Below, piece after piece: positions 15,806-46,125 of a stretch of DNA of 64,000 bases. The first letter of the stretch is position 1. Every line of letters begins with the position of its first letter. Made by a program: the position numbers and the translations under genes. This DNA is from Meandrina meandrites. Its lineage: Eukaryota; Cnidaria; Anthozoa; Scleractinia; Meandrinidae. Below the pieces are notes generated by a model, which ran no database searches, was not told the origin of the DNA, and saw nothing but the letters and a program-made list of their open reading frames with translations. The stretch covers positions 6,021,607 through 6,085,606 of the forward strand of contig OY855915.1 in assembly GCA_963693305.1 (NCBI GenBank), read 5' to 3'.

Positions 15806-15985
15806 GAGGAGGCAGCGTGGCCGAGTGGTTAGAGCGCCGGACTGGAAATCCGGAGCTCACGGGTTCAAGTCCCATTCTGACCACAATCTGGATTTGTTCT
15901 CGGTTGTCCCGAGTTCAACTCCTCGGTCATGCTTGTAAATAGCCAACTGGTCTGCCTCCTGCCAGTTGGGATATTTAACCATGTT
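15806..15985 (+). mobile_element. tRNA-derived SINE, family B
   Basis: The head folds like a tRNA: ggccgagtggttagagc as D arm, ccgga-ctggaaa-tccgg as anticodon arm (anticodon GGA, Ser-like) and gggttcaagtccc as T arm. The acceptor ends mispair. A non-tRNA body follows (cggttgtcccgagttcaact; gtaaatagccaactggtctg; gccagttgggatatttaac) and is shared with 40,506-40,680. It is therefore a SINE rather than a tRNA gene. Confidence 0.85.
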
Positions 15986-18707: not shown

Positions 18708-21700
18708 ATGGCTGAAACAGCGGAAGAGTGTCCTACTTCGTCCGAAAATGAGGTACATTTGTCAATCTTTTCCTTTCATAATGACTTATTGCTACCGATT
18801 TATGTTTAAAGCGTGGGGTTAAGTCTTAAACGTGCCCAATTGTTGTTTCTTGGCAGCGAGCGTTTGTTTGCAGTGCGAATTTACATGAAAAATTCATCAC
18901 GGTGAAAACGCTGCGCACCGCGCGGCAAATGTACGATTTGCGGCGGGTTTTGTTGTGCTGTGTAAACTAAACGAAAGCCGTGATATAGTGTATTGCCATC
19001 TTGTTATAGTCAATAATGTTTAAAATAAGTCTCCATGTTATTTCATGTCTTGAAACTTTTTGTTTTAAAAGCTTTGTTTTCTTGTTCCAAGTGGTAATTT
19101 ACTAGGCTCAACAAAGTGTATTGGGCTTGTCAGTTTACGCACAGAAATTAGCATTATAAAATTAAAAGTTTAGTCTACAAATAGCTTGTTGGCTAGAAAG
19201 TGGTTTATTTCTTAAGGAGAGCTTAAATTTAATTTTACGGCAGACAAAAATATAATGCATTTAAGCCTGCATGTTTCAAGTCGCATTCGCTGTCGGGTGT
19301 ATGCCAGGCTAATTATACTTCTTTGGTTTGTACTTTCTGTCCTATTGTTCGGCGAAGCGTCGTTGCTGAACGCTTTGTTAATGGTAAATTGTGTCTTGTT
19401 TTAATAATGTTTATCACAGACCTTGCTTTTCACATCTTTATTTATACTTTTTCACTTGTGTCAAGACACGTTTTCGCTCAGTAAACACAAATCGAACAGT
19501 TAATCAAATATTGTCAATTTCATACTTTGTTAGTGTATAAATATCAGTGACTCTCAAGCATAAAAAGCTCATAAATTGATTGATTGTAAGTCACAGATAA
19601 GGGAAAGCTTTGGAAATTAGCTTTCTAAAAACGCAGTGCCGCATCTTCGTAAACCATGTGCGACAAAATACGTGTTAATCGTCTTTGAAATATTTATTAC
19701 AAATTATTACTTTTAATGAAATCTAAACGTTAAAAAGAATATCAAAAATTAAAGATACGTGGTGGTAAAATCTTGATACCCATAAAAATAAGCCCTCAGT
19801 CCATATTTTAGACCGAATTTAAATGCAATCAATATTTAGTTAAACATTCACATTGACGTATTTACTATCGGTATGTTGAGAATTCTTAGTAAATTTGCAT
19901 TACTGCCATTGAGAATTATACATGTAACACTATTGATTGCCTCTTGTACTCAAATTACAAAAGTATCGAAGTATATGCTGAACTTCTTGTATACCATTCC
20001 TGTAAACATCACAATTCCTTATGGTTCTGTTTATAACTGAAAATATGTTTGCTGCATTTTTTTGTCAACAGGTAATATTTTTTTAGGTGACATTTTTGTT
20101 GACATTTTCCTTTGCTCTTATGACATGGTTCAGTGATTACAGACAGTATTTTTATCAACACGTCAAATTTTCATTTGAAAAACAAATTCTAGAAAATGAA
20201 CTAACTACAAAGTTCTTTTGTTTTGTAAACAATGTGTACTTTTAAAGCTGTTGTACCCAATGGAAAAATATTTTAAATTATAGTGACGTTATGAACTTGC
20301 TAATATTAATTTTTAAGGGGGGTCCTTCTTAACTACAGATCTAGAGCAGTTGCTAGGGAATTCCTGAAGACCAGTTTTAGTGGCAAGCCATTTTGAATCG
20401 TTTTGTAACGCTGAATGGTAAATTTTGTGGGGCAGGAAATACCTGCTTGAAATATTGACAATGCGCCTGCATAACTAGTGCCAGTCCTAAACCGCGCGTT
20501 AGAATTTAAAATCCCTAAAACTTGGAGGAAAAAAGGAAGAGTTCTGAATTTTTTAAAGAATCGGAGATAACATAGCCTTCTTTATAATCCTACGTATGGG
20601 ATTACCGTTTACAAGAAAGAAAAAAGCGCTACTGAAGAAAGTCTGAAAATACGGGTGTTTATTATGTCATAACTTTTACAATAATGCAAATTTTGTAAAA
20701 CCCATACGAAGCATTAAGCATGTGGACATTCTTTATCTATTGGCACTGATTTTAACTTTCAGTTTCATATGCCCTTTCAGTTTTAGGGTTTTTTCTATTC
20801 TGGCCACGCCACTTGTCAAATATGGCCGTTATTTGAAACTCTTGAAGGACTCTTCAATTGAACAAAGTTGCGAAAAAAGCTTATCCGTAGCAGGTCAAGT
20901 TTCCAAAATATGGCGGTTAGATACCTTCCTTAGCAACAACTTAGTAGTTAAGAAGGACCCCCCTTAAGTATATGTCATTGAATAAAACTGGATTTAGGTC
21001 CTTGAAAGTCCTTGTTAAGTCACTGAATTTTGTTGCAAAAAAGCTTACCAATCCTTAATACATGTACTGCATTTAACAGATTTCACTTGATAATTAACAT
21101 TTAACTTGAGGGTAAAAAGGTATTGAACTGATCTTCAAAATCTTTAAAAGTTACTATGGCATATTAAATTCTTGTAATACATTCAAGTGTCATGTGGTCT
21201 AACTAATACATTTACCATGGAGATACCCTATTGATTCCAGACCAAAACTTTCGGATTTCTATACCCTATCACAGACTAAACTGCTCGAAAACTGTACCTT
21301 TTACAGTGGCACATACCCATATACCGTAAAATTCCGGTTATAAGCCCCAGGCTTATACAACTTCGTAAGGGGTTTTGGGTGGGCTTATAAGCAGAGGGGC
21401 TTATATCCGGGGGAGCTTATAAGCGGAATAAAAAAAAAACGTTTCGAAACCAGCCACTGCAGTGTTGATCGAAATACGTTTTCAAGTTAAAAAGTCATAA
21501 TGAAGCAACATTTAGCCCTGTTCAGTACTGTCATCCAGCAGAGGGGGGCTTATATCCGGGGGGGCTTATAACTGGATGTATTTTATTGTTTCCAGGTAGA
21601 TGGGGCTATAACCGGGGGAGCTTATAAGCGGGGGTGGCTTATAACCGGAATTTTATGGTAGCCTACTGTAAATGATTGCTACAGGCATAGCAACCTGAGA

Positions 21701-24700
21701 AAGTGTTGGGAGTAATCTGCAATGGACCAGCATCCCATGCAGGGGGAGTAGCAATATATTACTTGCAAAAAGTTTCGGACGATTGTACAGTGGATTCAGG
21801 TTGAGCATTTAACAGCCTCAGTTGTCGCGTTCGTTGTCACGGTTGAATTGATTGCCTCGCGAGGCAAAATGACAGATGTTGCTAGGCAGGAATGACGATG
21901 TCCTGTCTGGGAAAAAGCACGTTGTGGTTTTCCTAGGTAGAACGTTGGCATTCCCACCTAGCAACGTCATTTTGCCTCGCAACGCAAATCAATTCAACCG
22001 TTACAACGAATGCAACAACTGAGACTGTGAAGCACTCAACCTGAATCCGCTGTAACTTCTGGCAAAAAAGGTGTCTGAAAATAAAGCCGGCACCATGCCA
22101 TGCATTCAAGGGCAATATGCATTATAAGGCTAGCACCCAGACTAGACTTTGCTAGTTCTTTTTATCAATGGAAAGGAATTTTTTTTCCTTTTTGGAGCAA
22201 ACTCTAGTTGAGACACTGCTTGAGATAATGTAATGGCTTGATAGAATTTGCATTATTTCCACACTGGTATATCTGTAGAACCTTGAGTGTGCAGTCATTT
22301 TCACAAAATTTACTTTAGCTATGTTTTCGCTTTAGCTATGTTTTCACAAAGTGCTCAATATTTTTGTCTGAAATGAGATAAAAAGTGTCCAAAAATTAAA
22401 TATCCTTATTCAGATATTTTAACGTCCGAACTTTTTTGCGAGTTACTCCTAGTCACTTCATGCTACAGACAGTACCAGGATAAGCTCTGGCCATGTGATC
22501 CACGTTGGTCTGAGTGCAGGTTACACTTTCACCCTATTCAGTTTGTGATTGTTCTTATATTTTCAGACGTCAGGCTTGTCAGGTTCCATTGAGTCTATAG
22601 ACTTGTCCTGTATCCATGTAAGTACTGCGTAACTTTAATTGTTATATATACATCCTTGTAAGAGGAAAATAATTAGTGTTTATTAGCTTGATCTTTTTGT
22701 TTCAGATTATCTTTGATAATGAGACAAAGGAAAAGAAAAACATTCGAAACTAAACCATGCCCAGAATCTAAGCACAAAAGAAAACAAAACCATCTACACA
22801 AACTTATTCCTTGTAATGAACTTTCTAGTTAGTATAAATATCATATAATTTTAATATCTTTAATGTAAATTATTACATTGTCAGTAGTGTTAAGATCGTA
22901 TGTTACCGGTAATTAGTGCGAGTGTTGTACTGTTTGTAGTCTTAGTTTTGTATCGTATGCAATGTAACGTGTAGAACATTTTGGAATAGAAAAAAATGTA
23001 AAAATAGAAAAATCTACGCAAACTTTCCTACCAGTGTAAATTATGTTTAAAATTGAGAAAAACAAATGTATTCTATCCAAGCTTGTCTTAGGAAAAGTTT
23101 CTAAAGGAATGCTGTCATGTTTAGTTTGCCAATGCTGTTAATACTTTTGCTCAGTAATGCACATGTAGTTGTACTTCTGGTGTGCATGACACTTATTTAA
23201 CTTGAATTTATTATTTGTATGCTGTTGTTTACAATTTGGTATGTTCCTTTGTTTTATATAATTTTCATTATTTATCATCTACACCAGAACAAAGGAAAAT
23301 ACCAAATTGTACCAAAGGTATTTAAAAACTTGAACCACAACATACATTTGAATGCATCAAGTGCTATCCAGTCCTTTGATATTATTTACAACGTACTGTA
23401 AACTTAAAAAACAATTGTTGTTAATTTGTTGTTTCAGTGGGGATACTTAAACTATACACTCTTAAATGATCCAAAGAAAATAAAGGTAAGTAGAGTACAA
23501 GATTATAGTCTGTGTTACTAGCGCAGCTCAAATTATAAATCAGGGTTCTCATTAGAAGGTGGGACCTGGGTACCAGAACCAGGATACCCAGGCAAGTGTC
23601 AGTACCTGCTTACTTTCAAACTGAAGGTAAAATAATAACTTCACTTCAAGCGTTCTTTTCTGCCCACCTACATGTACTCTCCTATGGGTACCCTCCTACT
23701 TCAAGACTTAATGAAACTCGTGATAAATTCTATCAAATATATAGCACAGACTTAAACTTCCCCAGCTCCTTCCATTCTCCCATTCTCCCCCTTCCTTCCT
23801 TCCTTCCTTCCTTCCTTCCTTCCTTCCTTCCTTCCTTCCTTCCTTCCTTCCTTCCTTCCTTCCTTCCTTCCTTCCTTCCTTCCTTCCTTCCTTCCTTCCT
23901 TCCTTCCTTCCTTCCTTCCTTCCTTCCTTCCTTCCTTCCTTCCTTCCTTCCTTCCTTCCTTCCTTCCTTCCTTCCTTCCTTCCTTCCTTCCTTCCTTCCT
24001 TCCTTCCTTCCTTCCTTCCTTCCTTCCTTCCTTCCTTCCTTCCTTCCTTCCTTCCTTCCTTCCTTCCTTCCTTCCTTCCTTCCTTCCTTCCTTCCTTCCT
24101 TCCTTCCTTCCTTCCTTCCTTCCTTCCTTCCTTCCTTCCTTCCTTCCTTCCTTCCTTCCTTCCTTCCTTCCTTCCTTCCTTCCTTCCTTCCTTCCTTCCT
24201 TCCTTCCTTCCTTCCTTCCTTCCTTCCTTCCTTCCTTCCTTCCTTCCTTCCTTCCTTCCTTCCTTCCTTCCTTCCTTCCTTCCTTCCTTCCTTCCTTCCT
24301 TCCTTCCTTCCTTCCTTCCTTCCTTCCTTCCTTCCTTCCTTCCTTCCTTCCTTCCTTCCTTCCTTCCTTCCTTCCTTCCTTCCTTCCTTCCTTCCTTCCT
24401 TCCTTCCTTCCTTCCTTCCTTCCTTCCTTCCTTCCTTCCTTCCTTCCTTCCTTCCTTCCTTCCTTCCTTCCTTCCTTCCTTCCTTCCTTCCTTCCTTCCT
24501 TCCTTCCTTCCTTCCTTCCTTCCTTCCACCCTCTCTTACTCCCCCTTAAATAAATCAATCAAAATAAATAAATCAACTATGTTTAATGAGGGTAGCACAT
24601 AACAGTCTCGCGACTGACAAACCTGTGGCCCTCGAATTCCCGATCGAATTGGAATTTGGAAGTGTTGGTTTTTGTGGAGGGAGGAAAACCGGAGAACAGG

Positions 24701-36700: not shown

Positions 36701-39700
36701 TGTGTAGACCGGGCTAAACAAGGATGAGAGTTGATTCTCGTAAGAGTTTTCGTCAATTATCATCAACAACATCAACTGGGGCCAAACGAGAACGAGAGTC
36801 GTCGAGAGTCCGTCAAGAGTGACGTGTAATTTCAAAAAAATTGTCTCGATGAGAGCGCATGAGAGTCGATGAGAGTCGATGAGAGTGCACAAGAGTTTCA
36901 GGGTAAATGAGAGCGTGAGTTTAAACTCTCATCAATCTTCATCCGCCTTTGGCACGGGCTTAGTATTGCGCTGATTCAAAGCGCTGTCAGTGAGTTTTTT
37001 TAGACTTAACTTGCAGACCTTTTCAACTGAAGATTCGCCAACTGTGATTAAGCTCTTTTAATATTTGTTAACCTTTCTTTTTTAACATTTGCAGGTCTTC
37101 CTACAAAGTTGTCGCTAAGGTATGTTGATAGGTTCACTTTAGAAAGCAGGACTGGCGGCTGAGTTGTCAAGTGTGGGAAAAAGTCGGGTACAGGCTAATT
37201 TACACGCTTCGATTTGTTGGCCACGATAAATCGAGAAGCGAATTGCTATATGTACAGCGCAAGCAGTGCATATGTATTTTTATTGTCAAAACTTTTTCTT
37301 GGAAAACAAAATGATAGATGTAGTTTTGTTTTGCGTCAATTCAAATCTTTTGCAGGTTGCGTTTTCGTTCATAGAATCTGGCCCGACACACGAAAATCAG
37401 ATTACCCTTTTGTCGAGTTCGCACCTGATTGGCTAAAAATCAAGCGTGTGCGCACTGCTTGGTGAAATCTCGTGAAAGCACGTGTTTATGAACCAATCAA
37501 CTTCTGCGTCGGGTTGTTAAGGCACGATTTAATAAAACAGGATTAGCGTGAATTGTGATTTCAGTTTTGTAACCCTTTCAGTGAGGTTTGCTGTTTATGT
37601 TTGTCCTTCAGTTTTTATTTTGACTTACCTCAAACGTTTTAAAAAAACTGTTTTACACAAGAGGAATTAAGACGGAATCCGCCAGGACTTCGAGTAGTTA
37701 TTGGACAAAATTATGTACCAAAATTATTTGCACCTTGTTGCAAGCTTTTGTGTTACTGTTGAAATATCTTATCAAAAGAAATCTTTTCTAACAACACCAA
37801 ACATCGAAAACCAAGTTTGAAGTTCCGCTGAATTCCACTAAATCGCTTAAAACACGTGAGCTTTTGCCTATAGCTTGTGAACTTTGAATTTCATTTTCTC
37901 AGGCTCTGATAAGAAATTGTTGTACCAAAATTATATACACCTTATTGCAAACTTTTGTGTTACTGCTTCACATATCTTACCAAAAGAAATCTTTTCTAAC
38001 AACACCAAACACCGAAAAAAAATTTTGAATTTCCACTGAATTCCACTGAATCGCTTAAAGAAGATTTTACAAAATGGCTGCACGTGAGAATTTGCCTGTA
38101 GCTTGTGAACTTTGAAATTCATTTTCTCAGACTCTGATGAGAAATTGTTGTTGATGTTATCAGGGATTATTACTTACATCTTTACCTTTTATTTAGGGTA
38201 GAAAATAACGCAATAGGATTTAAATTATTCTGGTACTCGATTTTTGTACAACTTAACTAAATATTACTCGACTTCCTGGTGGATTCCGTCTTAAACCTCA
38301 GTTAACTTTTTATCCTTGGAGGTGCGGTGGCCAAATGGTTAGTGTGCTGGACTTCGGATCGAACGATCCGGGTCCGAGCCCTGGCCGGGGCACTGCGTTG
38401 TGTTCTTGGGCAAGATAGTTTGCTCTCATAGTGCCTCTCTCCACCCAGGAGTATAAATGGGTACCGGCAAATTTACTGCTGGGGGTAACCCTGCGATGGA
38501 CTAGCATCCCATCCTGGGTGGAGTAGAAATACTCCTAGTCGCTTCATGCTACGGAAACCGGGATAAGCTCCGGCCTGATGGGCCCCTTGGCTCGTATGCA
38601 GACTTAACCAACTTAACTTTTTATCCTGGGTTAACGGTAATCTGTTTTCAAACAATGCAATTTCTTTGAAGACGATTTTTAATGGCCATTTTAAACTCAT
38701 GCTACACCAGACCCCTACTCGAAAAGATTTTTACAAACTTGCAACGTGTTGTGACAAAAAAAATTCAATGATAGTTGTTTTATGCCTCAACTTGTTGCAG
38801 GCGGCTGGACGAAGAGTTTTCGCAGTTCGAAGGGGAAGGAACAGAACAGGGTATGTGATAACCTTCAATTACGGTTTCGTATAGTCTCCTTCGCAGCTGT
38901 TGTTTGGGCTCGTCACGCAACGCTCCCTCCCGGGGCGTTGCGTGACGAGCCCAAACAACGGCTGCGAAGGAGAGAAGGTTTCGTATCGTAGAACCAAATT
39001 ATAAGTAGGTTTTAAAAGAAGTAAATGTTAAATTATTGTCGCCTTTTTGATGAACCCGACATGCAATGTTGAGTGGATAATGGGAGGCGCGGTGGCCTAA
39101 TGGTTAGTGCGCTGGACTCCGGATTGAATAGTCCAGGTTCGAGCCCTGGCCGGGTCATTGCTTTGTGTTCTTGGGCAAGATACTTTACTCTCATAGTGCC
39201 TCTCTCCACCCAGGTGTATAAATGGGTACCGGCGAATTAATACAAGAGGATACCAACCCTGCGATGGGCTAGCGTCCCATCCAGCCGGGGGGGGGGGGGG
39301 GGGGTAGAAATGCTCCTAGCTACAGAAACCGGGATGAGCTTCGGCGGCATGGGACACCTGACCCGATGCACACTTTTTGAGTCGATTACATGTAATACTT
39401 CAGCAAACTTCATTTTGCTTTTGTTTGTTTTTGTTTTTTTTTTTTATCTCCAGGCATTCGACCGTACTCTGCATTTGTACCAACGATAAGAGCTGGAATC
39501 ACCTTGGGCACTGGGTTTGTAAATTTTAACTTTAGCATTTCATTTCTTAGAGCGGAGGGCAAAAATTAAATCGCGTTAACGAACTTGTCGTATTTCCCAT
39601 CATAGTTGCAGAGAAAGGCCCGCTACACACTAGCCGATTTTTCGTCGAAGAGCAGAAGATTTTTTATCGAAGAGAAAGAGTCAAAATTTATGAGACCATC

Positions 39701-42700
39701 AGCTTGCCGCAGCGTGCTCCTGTTCGACAGCCTCCTTGTTGAAAATGACGCTTGCTCATGCGACTATAGCAACGCTTTCTCATTGATAACGACGTTACCG
39801 AGCCCCGACAAAATGTCTTGGTCCACCGCACATTAGCAGACAAGGCCCGGCAAGGCCCGATCGTGTCGTAGACTTCTCTCAGGAATTCATTGCATGCTAG
39901 CCAACAAATGAAGATTTTTTTGACGGCCGACGAAAAATCAGCTATTGTGCGGCAGGCTGAAGTGTAGGAAAGTGTTGGAGATTGCCAAAGAGTCGTACGT
40001 TGTAATCCGTGAAGCGCGGGAAAGTTGCATGTGCCCTTTCAACTGATTGGTAGAAAATACCTCATCTTAGCTGTAATTGGTTAGTTCTTTCGCGCTCGGT
40101 AAACGCTAAAATAATCCGATAGCTGTTTTACTTTGAAAAAACAACGTTCTGAAAGAAATATCTTCTAAGCCTAAAGCAGTGGTTGTTGCATCTGTCTGAT
40201 TTTATTGGACGTGAAACTAAATTGCTCACATTCCTTTACAGGGTCCAAAACTTTGCCCCTCGCAAGTCCACGAAAGACGAGCTTCTCCGAGACTACTCGT
40301 CGACTCCCGAGAAGCCTCCGATGATTCGCTCGAACACGTGCACCACAATAGAGAAGCTCGGAGACTGGAGGTAAGTCTAACAAGTGACGTGAAGATGACG
40401 TGCATTATTTAATTGAAAATGAAAGTGCTGTTTTTGGCAAACTTCGCGGAATCAACTTAAAATAAGTGATGGGTTATAGGAGTTGGAGAAGTACATGAAC
40501 AAAAGGAGGCAGCGAGGCCTAGTGGTTAGGGCGCTGGACTTGTAATCCGGAGGTCCCGGGTTCAAATCCTCCTTCCTGCCACTAGATGGATTTGTCTTCG
40601 GTGGCCCCGAATTCAACTCCTCCACGCTTTGTAAATAACCAGCTGGTCAGCCTCCTGCCAGTTGGGATTTTTAACAAATTTCTGTTCTATTTGTAATATG
40701 TTTGCTTATTTACAGTGTCCACAATTAGTACAACAGTGTTAAATACCCTGACACTTAAATAAAGTAATTTATTTATTTATTTATTTTATTTTATTTATTT
40801 AATTTTTTTTTTTGTATTCCTCATATTATAACATATTGAACTTTTTGATTCCTTCATTTTCACAGCTCAACAGAAAACGCTCCGCCCATTAATCAACGCA
40901 GGACCCTTCAGTTAAGCAAAGAAACTTCAGGAGGATTCGGTTTCACTCTGCAGGTATCTAACGAAACACGGCCTTCGGTCACGGTCGTTATTGGTTTGTG
41001 AGGGCGGTTTACAGTGAAACTGCGATGTAAAGGACCCTTTTTTAATGAATTCCCCCAGTATAGCGAAGGACATTTTCCAGCCCAGCCAAATTTTCTAACA
41101 GTAATTGTATAAAATGTATGGAAACAAAATCCCGGTCTAACGATCCCCTGGTATAACGAACACATGATCCCAGTCCCTTGCTATCTGGGCTTCACTGTAT
41201 TTAACTTGGCGTTTCTGCTCCACACATTTCTCCAATTTATCGTAAGTACAGTGTTAGTGCATATATATTTAACGATTATGTTTTCTTTTCAATGGGTAGT
41301 TTTTCCATCATTGATGCATGAAAAGGGAAAACTGAATTGTCATAGGCTGTTTACAGACCCCTATTTTTTTCCGTGAAGCCGCAGAGGTTCGGACGATTGT
41401 GTCTCGTCAGTTCTCGCTCGCATAAAGAAACCAAGATGGCGGCCCCTCGAACTCAACGATCGACATCTATGACTTCACGGACGAATAGGGGACTGTGAAC
41501 AGTCTAGAATTGTCAGAACTCTCAAAGTTCCCAAAAATGGCATGTTTGTGGTCAAAAGTGGTCCAAGATAAAATGATTTTCCCGTTAGACTGTAAAATGC
41601 CACGTGGCAAAAGTATGTTCCTTACTTTTCCCTTATTTTCTGCACCCAACGTTCATATATTCTTGAAAACCTCTCCGTCACAACCCTGAAATTTCTTTGT
41701 TTGTTCACAAGAGTCAAGCTTCGCTTCTTGCAAAAAAAAAAAAAAAAAAAAGATCAAAATGGTACTTCCAGCCAAGAAAATCTTTAAATTCGGCTGGAAT
41801 GTTTTGAACTTGTTACAAAAATTAACTTCGTAGGATCAAAGCTCGATTTTTTTTCCTTTTTACGAGAGTTTGGATATATGTAAAAAGATTGGTTATATGT
41901 ACGTATTGCGGACCTATGTTTGCTTTTTGCAGACATACGGGATCGTTCAGCAGGAAGGCTCAGTGGAGTACATGACTTTTGTCCTGAGCGTCGAGGAAGA
42001 AGGACCTGCGTACATGGCGGGGCTAAGACCAGGTGAGCACCAAACGTCCTCGAATTAAACACTTCAACATTACCAGCTAATTCGTATCCTCGCTTTACCC
42101 AGGGACAAACTTACCCAACTACCCCACCCTGTCCTGTTCCAATGTTCTCATTTACCCATTCTACCATTATGATTCCGACAATGTTTGCACCTCCCGCCCC
42201 TCCCCCCTATTTCCGTATTTGCTTTGCTCAGCATTGCAGCTCGCGAGAGTGGTATGTGGAGGTCAGAAGTCAGCGAGAAGCGAGAAGCGTCAGAAGGAAA
42301 ACAGGACTCGGAGTCATAGAGGGAGTTGAGTGACTAGGTTATAGCAAGGGTAACGTGGGCGTTGGAGTCGTATGGAGATTTGGAGGAAGGGGGATTGAAG
42401 TAGGGTAACGGCAACGTGGTATTTAGGAGAGTCGTAGTAGTAGAGGGAGTTAAAGGAAGAGGAAACTAGTCCCATGGAAGATGGGGTTTTGGGAGGAGAC
42501 GGGGGAGGTACATGGCGGGGGATGGGGTCGGAGTCATTTCCCGGTTTTGCAACTCAGTCATGTCACTTTATAACGTTTTGCGTGATTGGGTTTATCATAT
42601 GTCAAGTTTTCGAGGCGTTATATCATTTGATGTTTGTCCGCAGGAGATATCATTCTAGAAGTTGACGGTATAAACGTGGAGGAAGAGGATCATAAATCGG

Positions 42701-45700
42701 TGGTCACGCGGGTTCATCAAGCTTCTGTATCGGTCAGGTACTAAATAAAATGTCAAACTGGCAGTTGATGAGAATGAAGAGAATTATTAGCGGCTTTTAG
42801 ATAGTAGTACGAGTACAAGTTTCGAATTTTGATCCAGTTACGTTTTCAGAGTCCTCGCACCCTGTTGTTGAACTTTTTAATAGGAGACTTGGTACGAAAG
42901 TGGTGTGAAACACATCATCATCATCATCATTTTATTTGCCACCTAAGAAAGCGTTAGCTCGAGGTTTGACAAGTCGAACTCGTACTCAATCTCGTACTCG
43001 GGCCTTGATCTAAAGGTCGCTATTGTTGTAATAAGTGTTTTTTTAAGGTGAATATACTGGCTATTATGCTACAGTCACTGTTAGACGCGTGCTGGATTGA
43101 CAAATGCTCATGGATTGATTGCTTCTTGTCGTTTTTTTTTTTGTCAAGACTGGTTGTGGTATTTGTGGATGCGCTTCGAAGAATGAAGATGAACACCAGA
43201 TTAAAGCTTCTCCAGGTAAAAACTTTCTCTTCAGTTCGTTCTTGCTCATGCTATATTCTATGTATTGTTAGGCCCTCTATCTTTGCGTTTTTTAGCCAAC
43301 TTTAATGCTTTAAGCGTTGGTCTGCAGAGTACTAAATCATATTAGTAGAATTCTACTAGTACACTAATGCAAATGCTGCAATGTGATTGGCTGAGCTATT
43401 GAACACTATCAGCCATTAGTGTGCAGTTGCCGAAGGTCGTCCACAAAATGCGACGTTTTTATCGTTTTTCCGAAGTTTTGGAAGGAAGTTTAGATGTAAA
43501 TGGATAAAAAAAAATTCCCGAGAAGACTAAAAGAAGGACATTAGCGTTTTCTTGACTTTAAAAGCTTGAAATTATAGAAAAACGGGTGCACGCGCGTAAA
43601 CAACTGCAAATTTACCAAGGACAATTCAATGCGTGCGATTTTGTTAAAGCGTTTAATAGTTCGATAATGCGTAGAAAAATAACTAGAAACCATTATTTGC
43701 GTTTATTTCAGTTAAAATTCTACTAATACAATTAGATTATTCGCTCTCAATTTCTATGAGGTGATAGTTGATTCGGCCTGCGGCCTCATCAACTATCACC
43801 TCATAGAAATCTCGAGCTCATAATCTAATTGTTAATTAGTGGTTTGCTACAACGAACGGCTAACGATCGAAACGTCAGCTGTCTAAGGCCTGGTTTAAAC
43901 GTCGCATTTTACATGCACCGAATACAATACTTATTCGAGTCGACTCGAATTAAAAAATTCGGCGTTTGGTTTTAAACGTCGCATTTAATTGCTGAGCTAT
44001 TGCTGAGCGTTCAATTCCAAATATAAGGTTGGTTATAAGGCTGTCCACAATACGCAAAATTTGGTCATTTCACGTTGTTGTTCCGCAAAGAACGGCAGTG
44101 AAAGTGGAACAGTCGAATATTCGACTGAACTCGCATTTAATTCAAATCTGCCAAATTTAATTCCTTTATACGTCGCATTTTACATGCACTTAATGCGGCA
44201 ATTTGATTCGGCGCATGTAAAATGCGACGTTTAAACCAGGCCTAAATTCGCTACGGCGTTAATTTACCACGCACTTTATAATAAGCATCACAAAGTGTCC
44301 TCACTGATAATAGTTCACCCAAACACACTTAATTCTGTCAAATATGAAGTAGTATACCTGCGTTCAATCCTGGACATAAGTGTCAAGTTCAAGTTGGGTT
44401 CAATTGCTCAGCGACGCAGCAAAGGTTCATCAGAAATTAGACCCTGAACCATTAATATCAGTTAAATGTATTGTTGTTTTTTTTTTTGGAACAGGCTGAA
44501 CTTGCGGACAAAGAACTTCTATTCGAAGAATTATCCAAGAAAGAAGAGGACATACTAAAAGGTTCCTGAAACTTTGATATTATAAACCTCTAATTTCAAT
44601 ATTTAGTTGAAGGGCAGTGTCACGGCTGGTGTATCGACTTTTATAAGTATGGGCCGTAGTCTCCTTTAAACTTGCTTATTATCCTGCAATAGAAAGAAAA
44701 AACACCAAAAGAGGTGAAAGCAAAGAAATGTCAACCAAAAAAGAAAAAAATAATGGTTAAAAAATTCAAAATTACATCAGAATGGCAACTTTGATTTCTT
44801 GACATCCTGTCGCAAAATCAAACTTGATGAACTGTATGTAATTCACTTCCATCCATGTATTCCTGTACTTCTTCCCCAGAATTCTTGATCTATTTTGCTC
44901 TGCAGGATCTTTTTATTCAATTCGTTTGTATATTTGGTGACATTTGGCAACACAATATGGCAATGAAGAAAGGGATTTCGATAATCAGCCAGGACAGTCC
45001 TAAAGTCCAAAGTTCAAATCTTTATTTTTATGCTTACACAAACTGCCTCAGTAATGTACACGCCCTTTTCCCCTTTTAGTGATGGAGACTGACAAAATAC
45101 ACTCGCAAGTCAGCATTGAATTAGCGGGGTGGGGAGGGGCAAGATGTGTCAAAATCGAAGTATTCCAACATAATCAGATGATAGTCAAATGCTTATTCTC
45201 ATTAACTACCTTTTAACTACCCTTTTAATTGATCACCAACCAAATTTCTGTCTTAACAGGAAAAGGAGTTGAATCTTTGGACCTCTCTCTAATGGACCTG
45301 ACACGAGAAAGAACCAGTTCCTACCTGTACACAACAGAATTAACAAGCGCCTTCAGTAAACAATCTCCAAATGTCCACGACAGTCTTCTGCAATACCGTC
45401 AAGCAGTTCAGGACAAGGCAGCTCGACGCAGGTCCCTCCCGGATCAGACCGAGTTGGGCAAACAGCGAATCGCTTTGACCACGGGTTCGGAAATCTTACA
45501 GAAGTTTTCTTCGCCAGACTTGAGCGCTCAGCGTCGTAAACCGAGTTACAAACTAATGAAAAGTTTCCGGAAGAAAAAACCGTCCGAGGAGAGCTCCAAG
45601 TTTTACGTGGACTTCGACTTGGGCAATCAGAATTCGGGGAAAGACGAGGAAATCGGAAGTGATAATTCAGCTTCCGGTATATTTGAGTCAGCGGTAACCG

Positions 45701-46125
45701 CCGCAGAACCGACATCAGCGACGAGAACAACGGTCGTACCCTGGACATTAGAACGAGAATTTCCGGCAACGAACAACTGGAGATCTTATAATGGGAAACC
45801 AAATTCTCTTTCACTCGGACAGCAGAACAATTCCAATGCACTTCGAGGATCTTCGGAAAATCCCGGTGTATCGAGTGGGAGCCGAGTTGCTTCGGGAGTC
45901 GCTGAGATGCGAAGACAGTTCGAAAAATCGTCCTCGTCAAAAACTTTGCCTTTGAAATCTGCGAGACCGATTAAAGATCAGCCTAATGGAGGCACTTTAG
46001 ACTCGAATGCTCTTCGAAGGCCAGACTTGCTAAATGCTCGCACGTCACCTCGACCCGTATCGTATTTGAAAGCTATGGATTCAGCCGGAGATAAGCCTCT
46101 TATTCCCAAAGAAAAGAAAAGATAA
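18708..46125 (+). CDS. PH-SH3-like-PDZ scaffold protein, tamalin/CYTIP-like
   Basis: Assembled from 26 exons with consistent phases: 18708-18752, 22567-22617, 23438-23485, 25380-25439, 25543-25611, 26502-26573, 28077-28207, 29442-29487, 29960-29975, 32330-32396, 32829-32869, 33252-33319, 33923-34004, 34584-35501, 36032-36133, 36424-36447, 37095-37119, 38801-38850, 39454-39514, 40242-40370, 40866-40953, 41933-42032, 42644-42737, 43149-43215, 44495-44561, 45260-46125. The sum is 3,387 nt, or 1,128 residues plus stop. The start ATG follows an in-frame TGA at 18,693. Order of parts: PH (33-174), coiled coil (about 190-262), SH3-like (267-365), Ser/Pro linker, PDZ (714-800), coiled coil (800-841), basic tail. 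The PDZ and following helix resemble tamalin/CYTIP, which bind cytohesins; those lack PH and SH3. All introns are GT/AG. A membrane-associated scaffold is inferred. Confidence 0.8.
20317..20963. mobile_element. TTAA-flanked DNA element (Kolobok or piggyBac-like)
   Basis: 647 bp with exact 20-bp inverted ends GGGGGGTCCTTCTTAACTAC and further inverted similarity inward (gttgctaaggaa). TTAA lies at 20,313-20,316 and 20,964-20,967. The TTAA target is typical of Kolobok and piggyBac. No transposase is present, and the 81-codon ORF inside is incidental. Confidence 0.85.
21324..21658. mobile_element. TA-flanked MITE with internal GGCTTATAAGC motifs
   Basis: Ends CCGTAAAATTCCGGTTATAA and its inverse ttataaccggaattttatgg, flanked by TA. 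The palindromic motif gcttataagc and variants recur at least six times inside. A diverged fragment of the same family lies at 56,855-56,940 in the hyccin gene. Confidence 0.8.
21690..22527 (+). mobile_element. family A SINE remnant with nested insertions
   Basis: SINE blocks at 21,715-21,765 (atggaccagcatcccatgca) and 22,440-22,527 (ttactcctagtcacttcatg; accaggataagctctggcc) are separated by ~670 bp. The insert is bounded by inverted ACTTGCAAAAAGTTTCGGAC / GTCCGAACTTTTTTGCGAGT. Within it lies the TA-flanked element 21,788-22,052. Confidence 0.75.
21788..22052. mobile_element. mariner-like MITE with ~110-bp inverted repeats
   Basis: Ends CAGTGGATTCAGGTTGAG / ctcaacctgaatccgctg, flanked by TA. 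The arms are inverted over about 110 bp, including tcagttgt, cggttgaattgat and gaggcaaaatgac. CAGTGG ends with a TA target are typical of Tc1/mariner. Confidence 0.8.
23438..29487 (+). CDS. PH-domain exons 3-8 of the scaffold gene
   Basis: Residues 33-174. Strand one starts WGYLNYTLLNDPKK and strands two to three read YWVDLCGSTLRLYK. A Pro/Ser-rich insertion from exon 5 precedes FIILKKGTEVTIVEPGYE, then HVFRLSF, YLFQAPTKGSMYRW and ISKIEEG. Trp159 is the near-invariant Trp of the C-terminal PH helix. Exons 3-6 are all phase 0 and 48-72 nt long. Parts such as YKSRKGK recall the PH domain of RALGPS, but the similarity is too weak to place it. Phosphoinositide binding is plausible but not provable from this. 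Confidence 0.75.
23791..24527. repeat. (CTTC)n microsatellite, about 184 units
   Basis: Uninterrupted pure CTTC tetranucleotide repeat of ~737 bases inside the intron between exons 3 and 4. It creates artificial ORFs on both strands: a Leu-Pro-Ser-Phe repeat and a Lys-Glu-Gly-Arg repeat. Degenerate CT-rich sequence resumes at 24,838-25,050 beyond a SINE. Confidence 0.95.
24600..24837 (-). mobile_element. tRNA-derived SINE, family C
   Basis: On the minus strand it begins agcagggatggcgcagtggt, with a B box (gggtttgattcccgg) and body (ctccggttttcctccctcc; ccaaattccaattcgatc). It matches the plus-strand copy at 47,173-47,360. It sits between two pyrimidine-rich tracts. Confidence 0.85.
24838..25050. 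repeat. degenerate CT-rich tract
   Basis: Imperfect ccctcc/cttccctcc repeats, probably an eroded extension of the microsatellite on the far side of the SINE. Confidence 0.8.
25090..25320. mobile_element. probable MITE related to 27,741-27,916
   Basis: Ends tatggtttcagaaaatatcc...ttctggaatgacacag are roughly inverted. The interior shares ggaatttccag and pyrimidine/G tracts with 27,741-27,916. A G run lies at about 25,218-25,237. No clean target duplication. Confidence 0.45.
26030..26283. mobile_element. hAT-like MITE, 8-bp target duplication
   Basis: 254 bp flanked by CTCCATTT (26,022-26,029; 26,284-26,291). Arms of ~45 bp share CGGTCGTTT and tacaagttgattcgcc in inverted orientation. The motif gaacgaggaatatacatt is duplicated inside. 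Confidence 0.8.
27338..27544. mobile_element. hAT-like MITE
   Basis: 207 bp with exact inverted ends GAGGCCCTGCCAGGG. Flanks read TATTAT on both sides (7 of 8 bases match if the ends are set one base inward). Located in the intron between exons 6 and 7. Confidence 0.75.
27741..27916. mobile_element. small MITE
   Basis: Ends gtgtggttccaggaaatgtc...gacttctggaaccacacat are inverted over about 24 bp with mismatches. G and C runs make the interior hairpin-prone. Confidence 0.6.
28780..28812. repeat. AAT trinucleotide tract
   Basis: Short (aat)n tract followed by further AT-rich sequence, in the intron between exons 7 and 8. Confidence 0.8.
29960..29975 (+). CDS. 16-nt microexon (exon 9)
   Basis: Bounded by ttataacag and gtaaat. 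It encodes Asn-Glu-Ser-Ala-Thr plus one base. Without it, exon 8 (phase 0) cannot join exon 10 in the frame required by exon 11, because an immediate TAA follows; with it the frame continues ...NESATDKRLKEAKLL. The choice rests on frame logic and splice sites only. Confidence 0.55.
30325..30425 (+). mobile_element. possible decayed tRNA-like SINE
   Basis: gtgagtgcctggccagtgtt followed 25 bases later by a B-box-like catgggctctattcccg. No conserved body recognised. Confidence 0.3.
32004..32276. mobile_element. MITE with AGTGTCGAAAAT-type ends
   Basis: The left end ttttcatttgagtgtcgaaa is inverted at the right (ttttacgacactcaattgaa). The 109-codon ORF across it has no domain and is element-derived. 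Ends about 50 bases before exon 10. Confidence 0.6.
32330..34004 (+). CDS. coiled-coil exons 10-13 of the scaffold gene
   Basis: Residues 180-266. Charged, helix-forming sequence includes LKEAKLLSMEQRRF, then an acidic turn (RDDVDSGMEGDVEEAYE) and a Leu-zipper-like stretch KRLQEMEDLVKQLEKEEEAF. It sits between the PH and SH3-like modules. A family A SINE (32,483-32,779) occupies most of the intron between exons 10 and 11. Confidence 0.7.
32483..32779 (+). mobile_element. tRNA-derived SINE, family A
   Basis: Near-complete: gggaggcctggtggcctaat, B-box-like ggtccgagccc, the full conserved body and tail cagacttaatt. Ends about 50 bases before exon 11. Confidence 0.9.
33543..33790. repeat. ~100-bp direct duplication
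   Basis: Two diverged copies (33,543-33,643 and 33,690-33,790) share ttccatcctcgccaacgtta, cctcacttcctaatgggttc and tcgagtattgttcta. Non-coding, in the intron between exons 12 and 13. Confidence 0.8.
34366..34554. mobile_element. foldback MITE 30 bp upstream of exon 14
   Basis: Arms of about 75-80 bp are inverted with modest divergence. Shared parts include aatagg, catttccgagtt, caaaacgagtct and gaaaccatt. The transcript could fold into a long hairpin immediately before the exon 14 acceptor (34,581-34,583). A family A SINE remnant with a G run lies just upstream (34,230-34,315). Confidence 0.7.
34584..35501 (+). CDS. large exon 14: SH3-like module and Ser/Pro linker
   Basis: A 918-nt exon, residues 266-572. 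Residues 270-365 look like an SH3 fold: CEFQSTTCKDYCLIPG, KGTELTILGQF, NNRWRCFVELP, then GSVPNSLLVEL as the last strands. A ~40-residue acidic Ser-rich insertion separates RW from the final strands. The first conserved Tyr and the paired Trp of classical SH3 domains are only partly present, so ligand binding is uncertain. The rest is disordered, with Pro-rich runs (PLPTPPLSPYSPH; PSPPSSPVTSRS) that look like phosphorylation or SH3/WW-ligand sites. Reading frame remains open past the donor to a TAA at 35,521, so intron retention would truncate the protein there. Confidence 0.75.
35523..35990 (+). repeat. ~106-bp tandem repeat, about 4.4 units
   Basis: Units start near 35,523, 35,629, 35,735, 35,841 and 35,947. 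Each contains aaaagttagaaccac, ttgtacagcataataaacag, tgctcaatagctttcatttg and catccacagact, with over 90 percent identity by eye. In the intron between exons 14 and 15. The same unit appears in a hyccin intron (57,858-58,035). Confidence 0.9.
36700..36965. repeat. gatgagagt-rich inverted repeat
   Basis: Repeated cgatgagagt units at 36,840-36,895. Outer segments (ccgggctaaacaaggatgag versus catccgcctttggcacgggc) are roughly inverted, suggesting a decayed foldback element. Confidence 0.45.
37671..38290. mobile_element. TTAA-flanked element with internal duplication
   Basis: 620 bp with ~26-bp inverted ends (GACGGAATCC...GAGTA, three mismatches) and TTAA at 37,667-37,670 and 38,291-38,294. The interior is two tandem copies of a ~215-bp unit (starting ttgtaccaaaattat at about 37,708 and 37,920). 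Confidence 0.85.
38319..38610 (+). mobile_element. tRNA-derived SINE, family A
   Basis: Full-length copy: ggaggtgcggtggccaaatg, ggtccgagccc, conserved body, cgtatgcagacttaacc tail. In intron 17. Confidence 0.9.
38882..38976. mobile_element. palindromic TAGnCT MITE, 9-bp target duplication
   Basis: 95 bp, nearly perfect palindrome (TAGTCTCCTTCGCAGCTG...gctgcgaaggagagaa) with exact flanks GGTTTCGTA at 38,873-38,881 and 38,977-38,985. Clearly related to 3680-3783 (shared tgtttgggctcgtcacgcaa). It begins 32 bases after the exon 18 donor. Confidence 0.9.
39081..39376 (+). mobile_element. tRNA-derived SINE, family A
   Basis: Full-length: gggaggcgcggtggcctaat, ggttcgagccc, body interrupted by a G run (39,286-39,304). 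In intron 18. Confidence 0.9.
39617..39962. mobile_element. probable MITE
   Basis: Inverted ends share cacta/cacaata...gctgatttttcgtcg over ~30 bp. No clear target duplication. In intron 19. Confidence 0.5.
40506..40680 (+). mobile_element. tRNA-derived SINE, family B
   Basis: aggaggcagcgaggcctagt, tRNA-like anticodon arm and B box (gggttcaaatcct), then the same body as at 15,806 (ccccgaattcaactcctcc; gtaaataaccagctggtcag; gccagttgggatttttaac). A (attt)n tract follows to 40,815. In intron 20. Confidence 0.85.
40866..43215 (+). CDS. PDZ-domain exons 21-24 of the scaffold gene
   Basis: Residues 702-818. RRTLQLSK opens the fold. The carboxylate-binding loop is GGFGF (724-728), followed by TLQTYG, MTFVLSVEEEGPAYMAGLRPGD, ILEVDGINVEEEDH, KSVVTRVHQASVSVRL. 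The TYG after the second strand, the ...VEMVTF-like third strand and GLxPGD...VxGxNVE match tamalin/CYTIP PDZ domains particularly well. The helix VDALRRMKMNTRLKLLQAEL follows, as the cytohesin-binding coiled coil does in that family. Confidence 0.9.
41343..41506. mobile_element. TAGnCT-type MITE, 9-bp target duplication
   Basis: 164 bp, ends TAGGCTGTTTACAG...CTGTGAACAGTCTA, inverted similarity over ~34 bp, exact flanks GAATTGTCA at 41,334-41,342 and 41,507-41,515. In intron 21. Confidence 0.85.
43730..43830. repeat. ~100-bp imperfect palindrome
   Basis: Arms aattagattatt...tttctatgaggtgatagttgat and their inverse meet at ggcctgcggcc. About six mismatches, clustered near the outer third. In intron 24. 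Confidence 0.8.
43886..44243. mobile_element. MITE with ~31-bp inverted ends
   Basis: Exact inverted ends AGGCCTGGTTTAAACGTC and onward through gcattttacatgc. The motif AACGTCGCATTT and close variants recur two more times inside. Flanking duplication not clear. Confidence 0.75.
45260..46125 (+). CDS. last coding exon (26), basic tail
   Basis: Residues 841-1128. Starts GKGVESLDLSLMDLTRERTS. It contains YKLMKSFRKKKPSEES, comparable in position to the basic YRSFRRR block near the tamalin C terminus. The remainder is Ser/Asn-rich and likely disordered. It ends IPKEKKR, so it lacks the C-terminal PDZ ligand present in mammalian tamalin. Acceptor is cttaacag at 45,252-45,259. Confidence 0.85.

Follow-up and report, generated by a model that had tools for sequence, protein, structure and literature searches.

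Does a single gene in the stony coral Meandrina meandrites join a PH domain, an SH3-like domain and a tamalin-type PDZ domain in one protein, or have two neighboring genes been read as one? The question arose from a sequence-only reading of a 64,000-nucleotide stretch of this genome (NCBI GenBank assembly GCA_963693305.1, contig OY855915.1, positions 6,021,607 to 6,085,606 of the forward strand; hereafter the window), which proposed the order PH, coiled coil, SH3-like, PDZ, coiled coil and considered that two neighboring genes might have been fused by mistake somewhere from exon 13 to exon 20. We found that the coral gene (18708..46125, plus strand, as are all of its parts below) is real and is one gene. 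It is probably the Meandrina copy of one gene by which anthozoans encode a long scaffold of the tamalin type, with a receptor-binding PDZ domain, a cytohesin-recruiting coiled coil, and PH and SH3-like modules in cis.

The start codon at 18708 and the stop codon at 46125 were borne out when the exon chain was rebuilt. The coding span consists of 27 exons whose phases agree from start to stop, all 26 introns are GT..AG, and the product is 1,145 amino acids long. The sequence-only reading had counted 26 exons and 1,128 residues, which is the same chain minus one 51-nt in-frame exon: leaving out either exon 2 (22567..22617) or exon 10 (31207..31257) gives exactly these numbers. The closest relative of the protein is that of another stony coral, Oculina patagonica (87% identical), whose counterpart of exon 2 is 100% identical. 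The 17 residues of exon 10 are present in the Oculina and Acropora models and missing from five of seven aligned relatives (Stylophora, Montipora, Nematostella, Actinia and Dendronephthya), and this exon therefore resembles a cassette exon. Exon 1 (18708..18752) begins with MAETAEE, where the Oculina protein begins with MAETTED, and is 80% identical to it, and exon 27 (45260..46125) carries the C-terminal tail and the stop codon.

The exon model was compared with relatives' proteins, all of which are predicted annotation models, by tblastn against the window. The Oculina protein gave 24 high-scoring segment pairs (HSPs), all overlapping model exons and 23 of them below E 0.01; they covered 24 of the 27 exons, and the three missed ones are 16, 24 and 25 nt long, with aligned identities to Oculina of 100, 89 and 78%. 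Coverage was 23 exons for Stylophora, 22 for Acropora (one off-exon match), 16 for Nematostella (two off-exon), 12 for Dendronephthya (two off-exon) and 3 for a hemichordate CYTIP-like protein (one off-exon match). Twenty shuffled versions of the Oculina protein gave 0–2 HSPs each and the reversed protein gave three, none below E 0.01. Thus, the exon model is not a product of chance.

Both halves of the protein recur together in other anthozoans. A whole-protein search (E <= 1e-5), with scoring restricted to the 7,986 candidates that had most words in common with the query, returned seven proteins, all anthozoan: Oculina, Stylophora, Montipora, two Acropora, Nematostella (known as predicted protein LOC5514106) and Actinia. 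Searching with the PDZ half alone yielded two further proteins, one from the octocoral Dendronephthya (1,024 aa) and the other a multi-PDZ protein of a fish, for which no PH was listed. PH and PDZ thus occur in a single chain in Oculina, Stylophora, Montipora, Acropora, Nematostella, Actinia and Dendronephthya, and the proposed order held in six hexacoral genera and one octocoral. The Dendronephthya and Nematostella proteins share this order, with 37% identity across the region from PH through coiled coil to SH3-like domain and 38% across the PDZ region. A precomputed Pfam list names the PH domain in four of the seven relatives (Oculina, Stylophora, Acropora digitifera and Nematostella), whereas in Montipora, Acropora muricata and Actinia it is below the Pfam cut-off and visible in the alignment. 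A partial Actinostola model has PH and PDZ without the SH3-like part. The A. digitifera model (P0005) is garbled within the PDZ and stops after the coiled coil; because of this misreading and early end it was left out of the conservation count, and also of alignment A4, while P0004 and P0005 were left out of alignment A5.

Could two adjacent genes nevertheless have been merged between exons 13 and 20, by public annotation as well as here? The public proteins that join both halves are predicted models, and an in-frame stop past exon 15, ending at 35521, is followed by a 106-bp tandem repeat that contains AATAAA at 35656, 35868 and 35974. However, both halves are present in eight anthozoan proteins (the garbled A. 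digitifera model not counted), exons 13–20 share 78–94% identity with Oculina and stay in phase across the two microexons among them (17 and 18), and no 15-residue stretch of the whole protein is more conserved than one in the linker between the halves. Because the linker exons and this stretch are conserved across the suspected junction, a shared annotation error is very improbable, and the sequence-only suggestion of two wrongly joined genes is opposed by the same data. The stop and the AATAAA sites do make possible a short PH-SH3-like transcript ending there. AATAAA was found 149 times in the window versus 111 expected (both strands), which does not indicate a single end. The tandem repeat itself (35523–35989) has 4.4 copies at 94%. 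A second early end may exist downstream: reading on from exon 26 (44495–44580, by eye), an in-frame TGA occurs soon inside intron 26, so that some transcripts may stop directly behind the coiled coil, as the A. digitifera model also does.

With one gene as the reading, its modules can be considered from the N-terminus. The PH domain (residues about 31–166, exons 2–8, 22612..29463) was matched by PF00169 over residues 47–166 with 34.3 bits versus a cut-off of 25.1 (E 3.5e-8); this family was below cut-off in four of six relatives scanned. The AlphaFold model of the Oculina protein shows a PH fold with a C-terminal helix, with matches in PDB. Phosphoinositide-binding PH domains carry K/R-x-R (canonical) or R/K-x-W (non-canonical) motifs, according to the available text of PMC3344901. 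Neither was found in the beta1-beta2 stretch of the PH domain in any of seven relatives. Lacking both, the coral PH domain may have little affinity for lipid or may have a protein ligand instead.

The PH domain also bears on the possibility that the whole N-terminal half is a PHCCEx module of the Tiam/SIF type, in which case the protein would be a Tiam-like scaffold minus the exchange-factor domains plus a tamalin PDZ. The likeness to Tiam1/Tiam2 includes the PH fold, the top profile match and the top VIA match. However, when the whole Oculina model was submitted to Foldseek and VIA, nearly everything compared belonged to the PH (residues 26–177), the Tiam matches are restricted to this part, and other PH domains are within about one Z unit. 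ARHGAP27 and ARHGAP9 headed the Foldseek ranking, with Tiam1 in eleventh place, and in the profile search ARHGAP21 (6.6e-4) and ARHGAP27 (1.2e-3) came close behind Tiam2. When the Tiam PHCCEx was compared directly, the PH part alone aligned, and much of what follows it in the Oculina model has a low predicted local distance difference test score (pLDDT). The similarity stops at the end of the PH domain, and by Pfam the coral protein has no exchange-factor domains, in contrast to Tiam1/Tiam2. A Tiam-type origin of this half is accordingly improbable. IPCEF1 was also tried as a source of the coral PH domain and was rejected, its profile match being weaker (0.021).

Behind the PH domain, an acidic segment, DDVDSGMEGD (exons 12–13, 32845..33256), retains DSGMEGD in all seven rows of alignment A1; it is not conserved in the octocoral. 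It is followed by a modestly supported first coiled-coil-like helix (residues about 248–276, exons 13–14, 33296..33985), modeled in Oculina at 249–276 with pLDDT of 63–64 over 251–270. The next module was claimed by the sequence-only reading as SH3-like at residues 265–365. A moderate-confidence model of 34586–34912 supports the claim in part and moves its best span to about 286–385: strands form a first part in exon 15 (residues 287–332, 34595..34732), and a closing strand, DILIGSVPNSLLVEL (34841..34885), contains LIGSVP, which together with the serine after the next residue is invariant in all eight aligned rows, the window's included. Between them lies an insert (residues 333–368, 34733..34840) that is mostly below pLDDT 50 and varies in length among relatives. 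SH3 domains lead the Foldseek list for this model, none below E 0.001, and Pfam gave no SH3 match for the coral protein or the scanned relatives. We therefore suggest, with modest confidence, that this is a predicted SH3-like domain interrupted by an insert that varies among relatives. Within the insert of Nematostella (residues about 340–450) we counted seven MVSRREVTTE-type repeats; corals have an unrelated stretch there. A proline-rich segment, TPQLSPLP(TPPLSPY) (34949..34972), comes after the domain and is the last of the 14 top conserved 15-residue windows (0.82).

Conservation peaks in the linker: over seven relatives, the top-scoring 15-residue window is rGISlIVGSSSSeDE (0.97), in the region of GISLIVGSSSSEDE (exons 16–17, 36100..36431). 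GIS(L/I)IVGSSSS was present in all eight proteins checked. The consensus of SUMO-interacting motifs (SIMs), as given in part of PMC8616421, is hXhh with an acidic or serine flank, including a serine-rich phosphorylated kind, and is degenerate. The linker agrees with it in all eight proteins: the hXhh core is I-S-L/I-I, and V-G-SSSS and acidic residues follow. From its sequence, the ISLIVGSSSSEDE segment may be a phospho-regulated SIM, and we regard it as a candidate.

The PDZ domain (residues about 729–822, exons 22–25, 40894..43176) was matched by PF00595 over residues 733–816 with 38.7 bits versus a cut-off of 23.2 (E 1.3e-9). Of the three proposed modules, Pfam thus placed PH and PDZ above the cut-offs and gave nothing for SH3. 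NCBIfam matches were all far below cut-off and named PDZ-bearing bacterial proteins and, on the Nematostella repeats, one collagen-like adhesin. The nearest PDB domain was tamalin/GRASP (2pnt, 2.4e-17), followed by CYTIP (4.5e-10), NHERF1 (5.6e-10) and Shank1 (1e-9), and the PDZ of Oculina is 45% identical to that of PDB tamalin. A full-length profile searched against PDB gave exclusively PDZ matches among the best 60 of 151. Directly after the PDZ is a coiled coil or leucine-rich helix (exons 25–26, 43177..44561), modeled as a helix in Oculina (819–856, pLDDT 39–70). A CYTIP-like protein of the hemichordate Ptychodera (443 aa), itself closest to tamalin, was 40% identical to the Oculina protein over 132 aa, running through this coiled coil. 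A PDZ tree of 12 rows grouped five anthozoan and two tamalin/CYTIP rows with support of 85/96, under the tree tool's mark for firm support, and left five others, including NHERF3 and MPDZ, outside; it had no Shank row. Together these data uphold the tamalin-type assignment. All seven anthozoan proteins and Ptychodera share a PDZ histidine which, by its position and role, we take to be the residue that sets class-I preference. The PDZ region of the Oculina model (731–820) is poorly predicted (pLDDT 28–53 by blocks), and the assignment therefore depends on sequence and not on fold.

Is this long form an anthozoan invention or the ancestral state? Its domain order is common to hexacorals, anemones and an octocoral and therefore dates back to crown Anthozoa or earlier. 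It is somewhat probable that a short tamalin gene acquired a PH/SH3-like gene at its upstream side in the anthozoan lineage or a cnidarian ancestor, and that a separate short tamalin was then gone. The long form was solely anthozoan in the whole-protein search (7/7 matches) and in the PDZ-half search (8/9, the ninth being the fish multi-PDZ protein), and short members with a PDZ and a coiled coil are known from a hemichordate (443 aa), from C. elegans (245 aa) and from mammals (PMC9983901, in part). When the Meandrina genome (551 Mb in 56 contigs, the window being on contig 13) was searched with the coral PDZ, with 14 candidates scored, four of seven matches were at the gene itself and three in other open reading frames (ORFs) at 33–38% identity. 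By eye these three loci (contigs 11, 1 and 3) are presumably a myosin-18A-type N-terminus, an NHERF-like gene and an RGS12-like PDZ-PTB gene.

Several points weigh against fusion. The whole-protein search was limited to its 7,986 candidates and missed the octocoral relative that the PDZ-half search found; the negative result outside Anthozoa comes from general searches and not from individual sponge, placozoan, ctenophore and medusozoan proteomes; and the query of the genome search was the coral PDZ, not a bilaterian tamalin. It is unlikely, though a possibility to be taken seriously, that the early animal gene was already long and that bilaterian tamalin, CYTIP and GRAS-1 are shortened remnants. 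N-terminal domain loss is a common evolutionary event, and the full order shared by hexacorals, anemones and the octocoral fits this history too. However, the bilaterian members considered here are short, and no long form, in bilaterians or elsewhere outside Anthozoa, was found in two long-protein searches of limited length and sensitivity. A further search, with three of eight relatives and the PDB tamalin PDZ, gave 57 matches among 7,993 scored candidates, including Actinostola, vertebrate NHERF3, one Ptychodera CYTIP-like protein, one bacterial protease and the window's exon-27 ORF. Vertebrate tamalin was not among the 57 listed matches, which is uninformative given the number of candidates scored. 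Many short matches of unnamed source in the same search were taken as single-exon coral fragments.

Functions for the coral scaffold can be proposed from its relatives. Mammalian tamalin attaches by its PDZ to the tails of metabotropic glutamate receptors (mGluR1/5) and, through its leucine zipper, to a coiled coil in cytohesins (PMC9104363, in part), while GRASP bridges cytohesin 2 and Dock180 through a proline-rich region that binds the Dock180 SH3, and IPCEF/CNK3 is a second cytohesin scaffold (PMC3599651, in part). By analogy, the coral PDZ would bind receptor tails ending in S/T-x-hydrophobic, with metabotropic glutamate receptors as candidates. A Nematostella mGluR tail, ISTYL, has the class-I form (PMC1876816, Table 1), and the available text of the same source states that Nematostella mGluRs could not be placed in groups I–III. 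As in vertebrate tamalin, the coiled coil would recruit a cytohesin-type Arf exchange factor. The PH and SH3-like modules would position the complex and bring in further partners in cis; in vertebrates this task may be done partly by the separate proteins IPCEF1/CNK3 and Dock180. The coral scaffold would thereby bring a receptor together with an Arf exchange factor and an SH3- or PH-borne partner, and ISLIVGSSSSEDE could serve as a phosphorylation-dependent SUMO-binding switch.

Taken to its limit, the proposal is of a "Rosetta Stone" fusion: two cytohesin scaffolds that are separate in vertebrates, a membrane scaffold with a PH domain and tamalin as the scaffold for receptor and Arf-GEF, would be a single polypeptide in anthozoans, with an SH3-like domain divided by a lineage-variable insert and a nearly unchanged phospho-SIM switch in the linker that times assembly. 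We offer this extended version tentatively and consider it doubtful. The gene would be the anthozoan form of a scaffold known from vertebrate mGluR trafficking and Arf-to-Rac signaling, and its fusion of domains predicts which parts share one complex. Nematostella is a tractable animal that carries the gene, so the prediction can be tested there, and whether bilaterian tamalins are relics or the anthozoan gene a fusion can be answered from existing genomes.

Some features of the window are of separate interest. Intron 3 contains a perfect (CCTT)n microsatellite of 184.5 copies (23790–24527). tRNA-like matches were found at 15811–15883, 39086–39157 and 40509–40580 (three by Rfam, two by ARAGORN), and similar text was noticed by eye elsewhere in the introns, near 32489 and 38322; these are probably tRNA-derived short repeats. 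A Pfam scan of 7 of the 33 listed window ORFs gave no match at E 0.01.

Among known systems, the closest is the family of tamalin/GRASP, CYTIP and GRAS-1. The sequence-only reading had known of no described family with this domain order, and we likewise found no published account of it among the listed fraction of the matching tamalin literature, covered mainly as titles and abstract starts; the available text of PMC2824662 names tamalin once, as a protein excluded there. The coral protein shares with the family a PDZ of the same type with the histidine of class-I PDZ domains, a homologous coiled coil directly after it and a conserved proline-rich segment, which in the coral protein is located before the PDZ. 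However, the coral PDZ starts only near residue 729, behind the PH domain, the helices, the SH3-like domain and the linker. GRAS-1 of C. elegans, which like GRASP and CYTIP carries a PDZ and a coiled coil, is 245 aa long (PMC9983901, in part), compared with 1,145 aa and a PH domain above the Pfam cut-off in the coral. The anthozoan proteins also have no conserved C-terminal PDZ ligand: S/T-x-V/L/I/M/F was absent from the window protein, which ends in EKKR, and from the C-termini of seven relatives (those of Nematostella, STA, and Actinia, SSA, are arguable, and the Stylophora model is without the tail end). Because it differs from the vertebrate proteins in this ligand and in the short size without PH or SH3, the coral protein is not a plain tamalin member. 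Shank, NHERF and other PDZ scaffolds have the PDZ fold in common with it, but their matches were weaker (NHERF1 5.6e-10 and Shank1 1e-9 versus 2.4e-17 for tamalin). IPCEF1 and CNK3 are separate proteins in vertebrates, and CNK also has SAM, CRIC and PDZ domains (PMC9104363, in part); by profile the anthozoan PH domain is closer to those of Tiam2 and ARHGAP21/27 than to that of IPCEF1.
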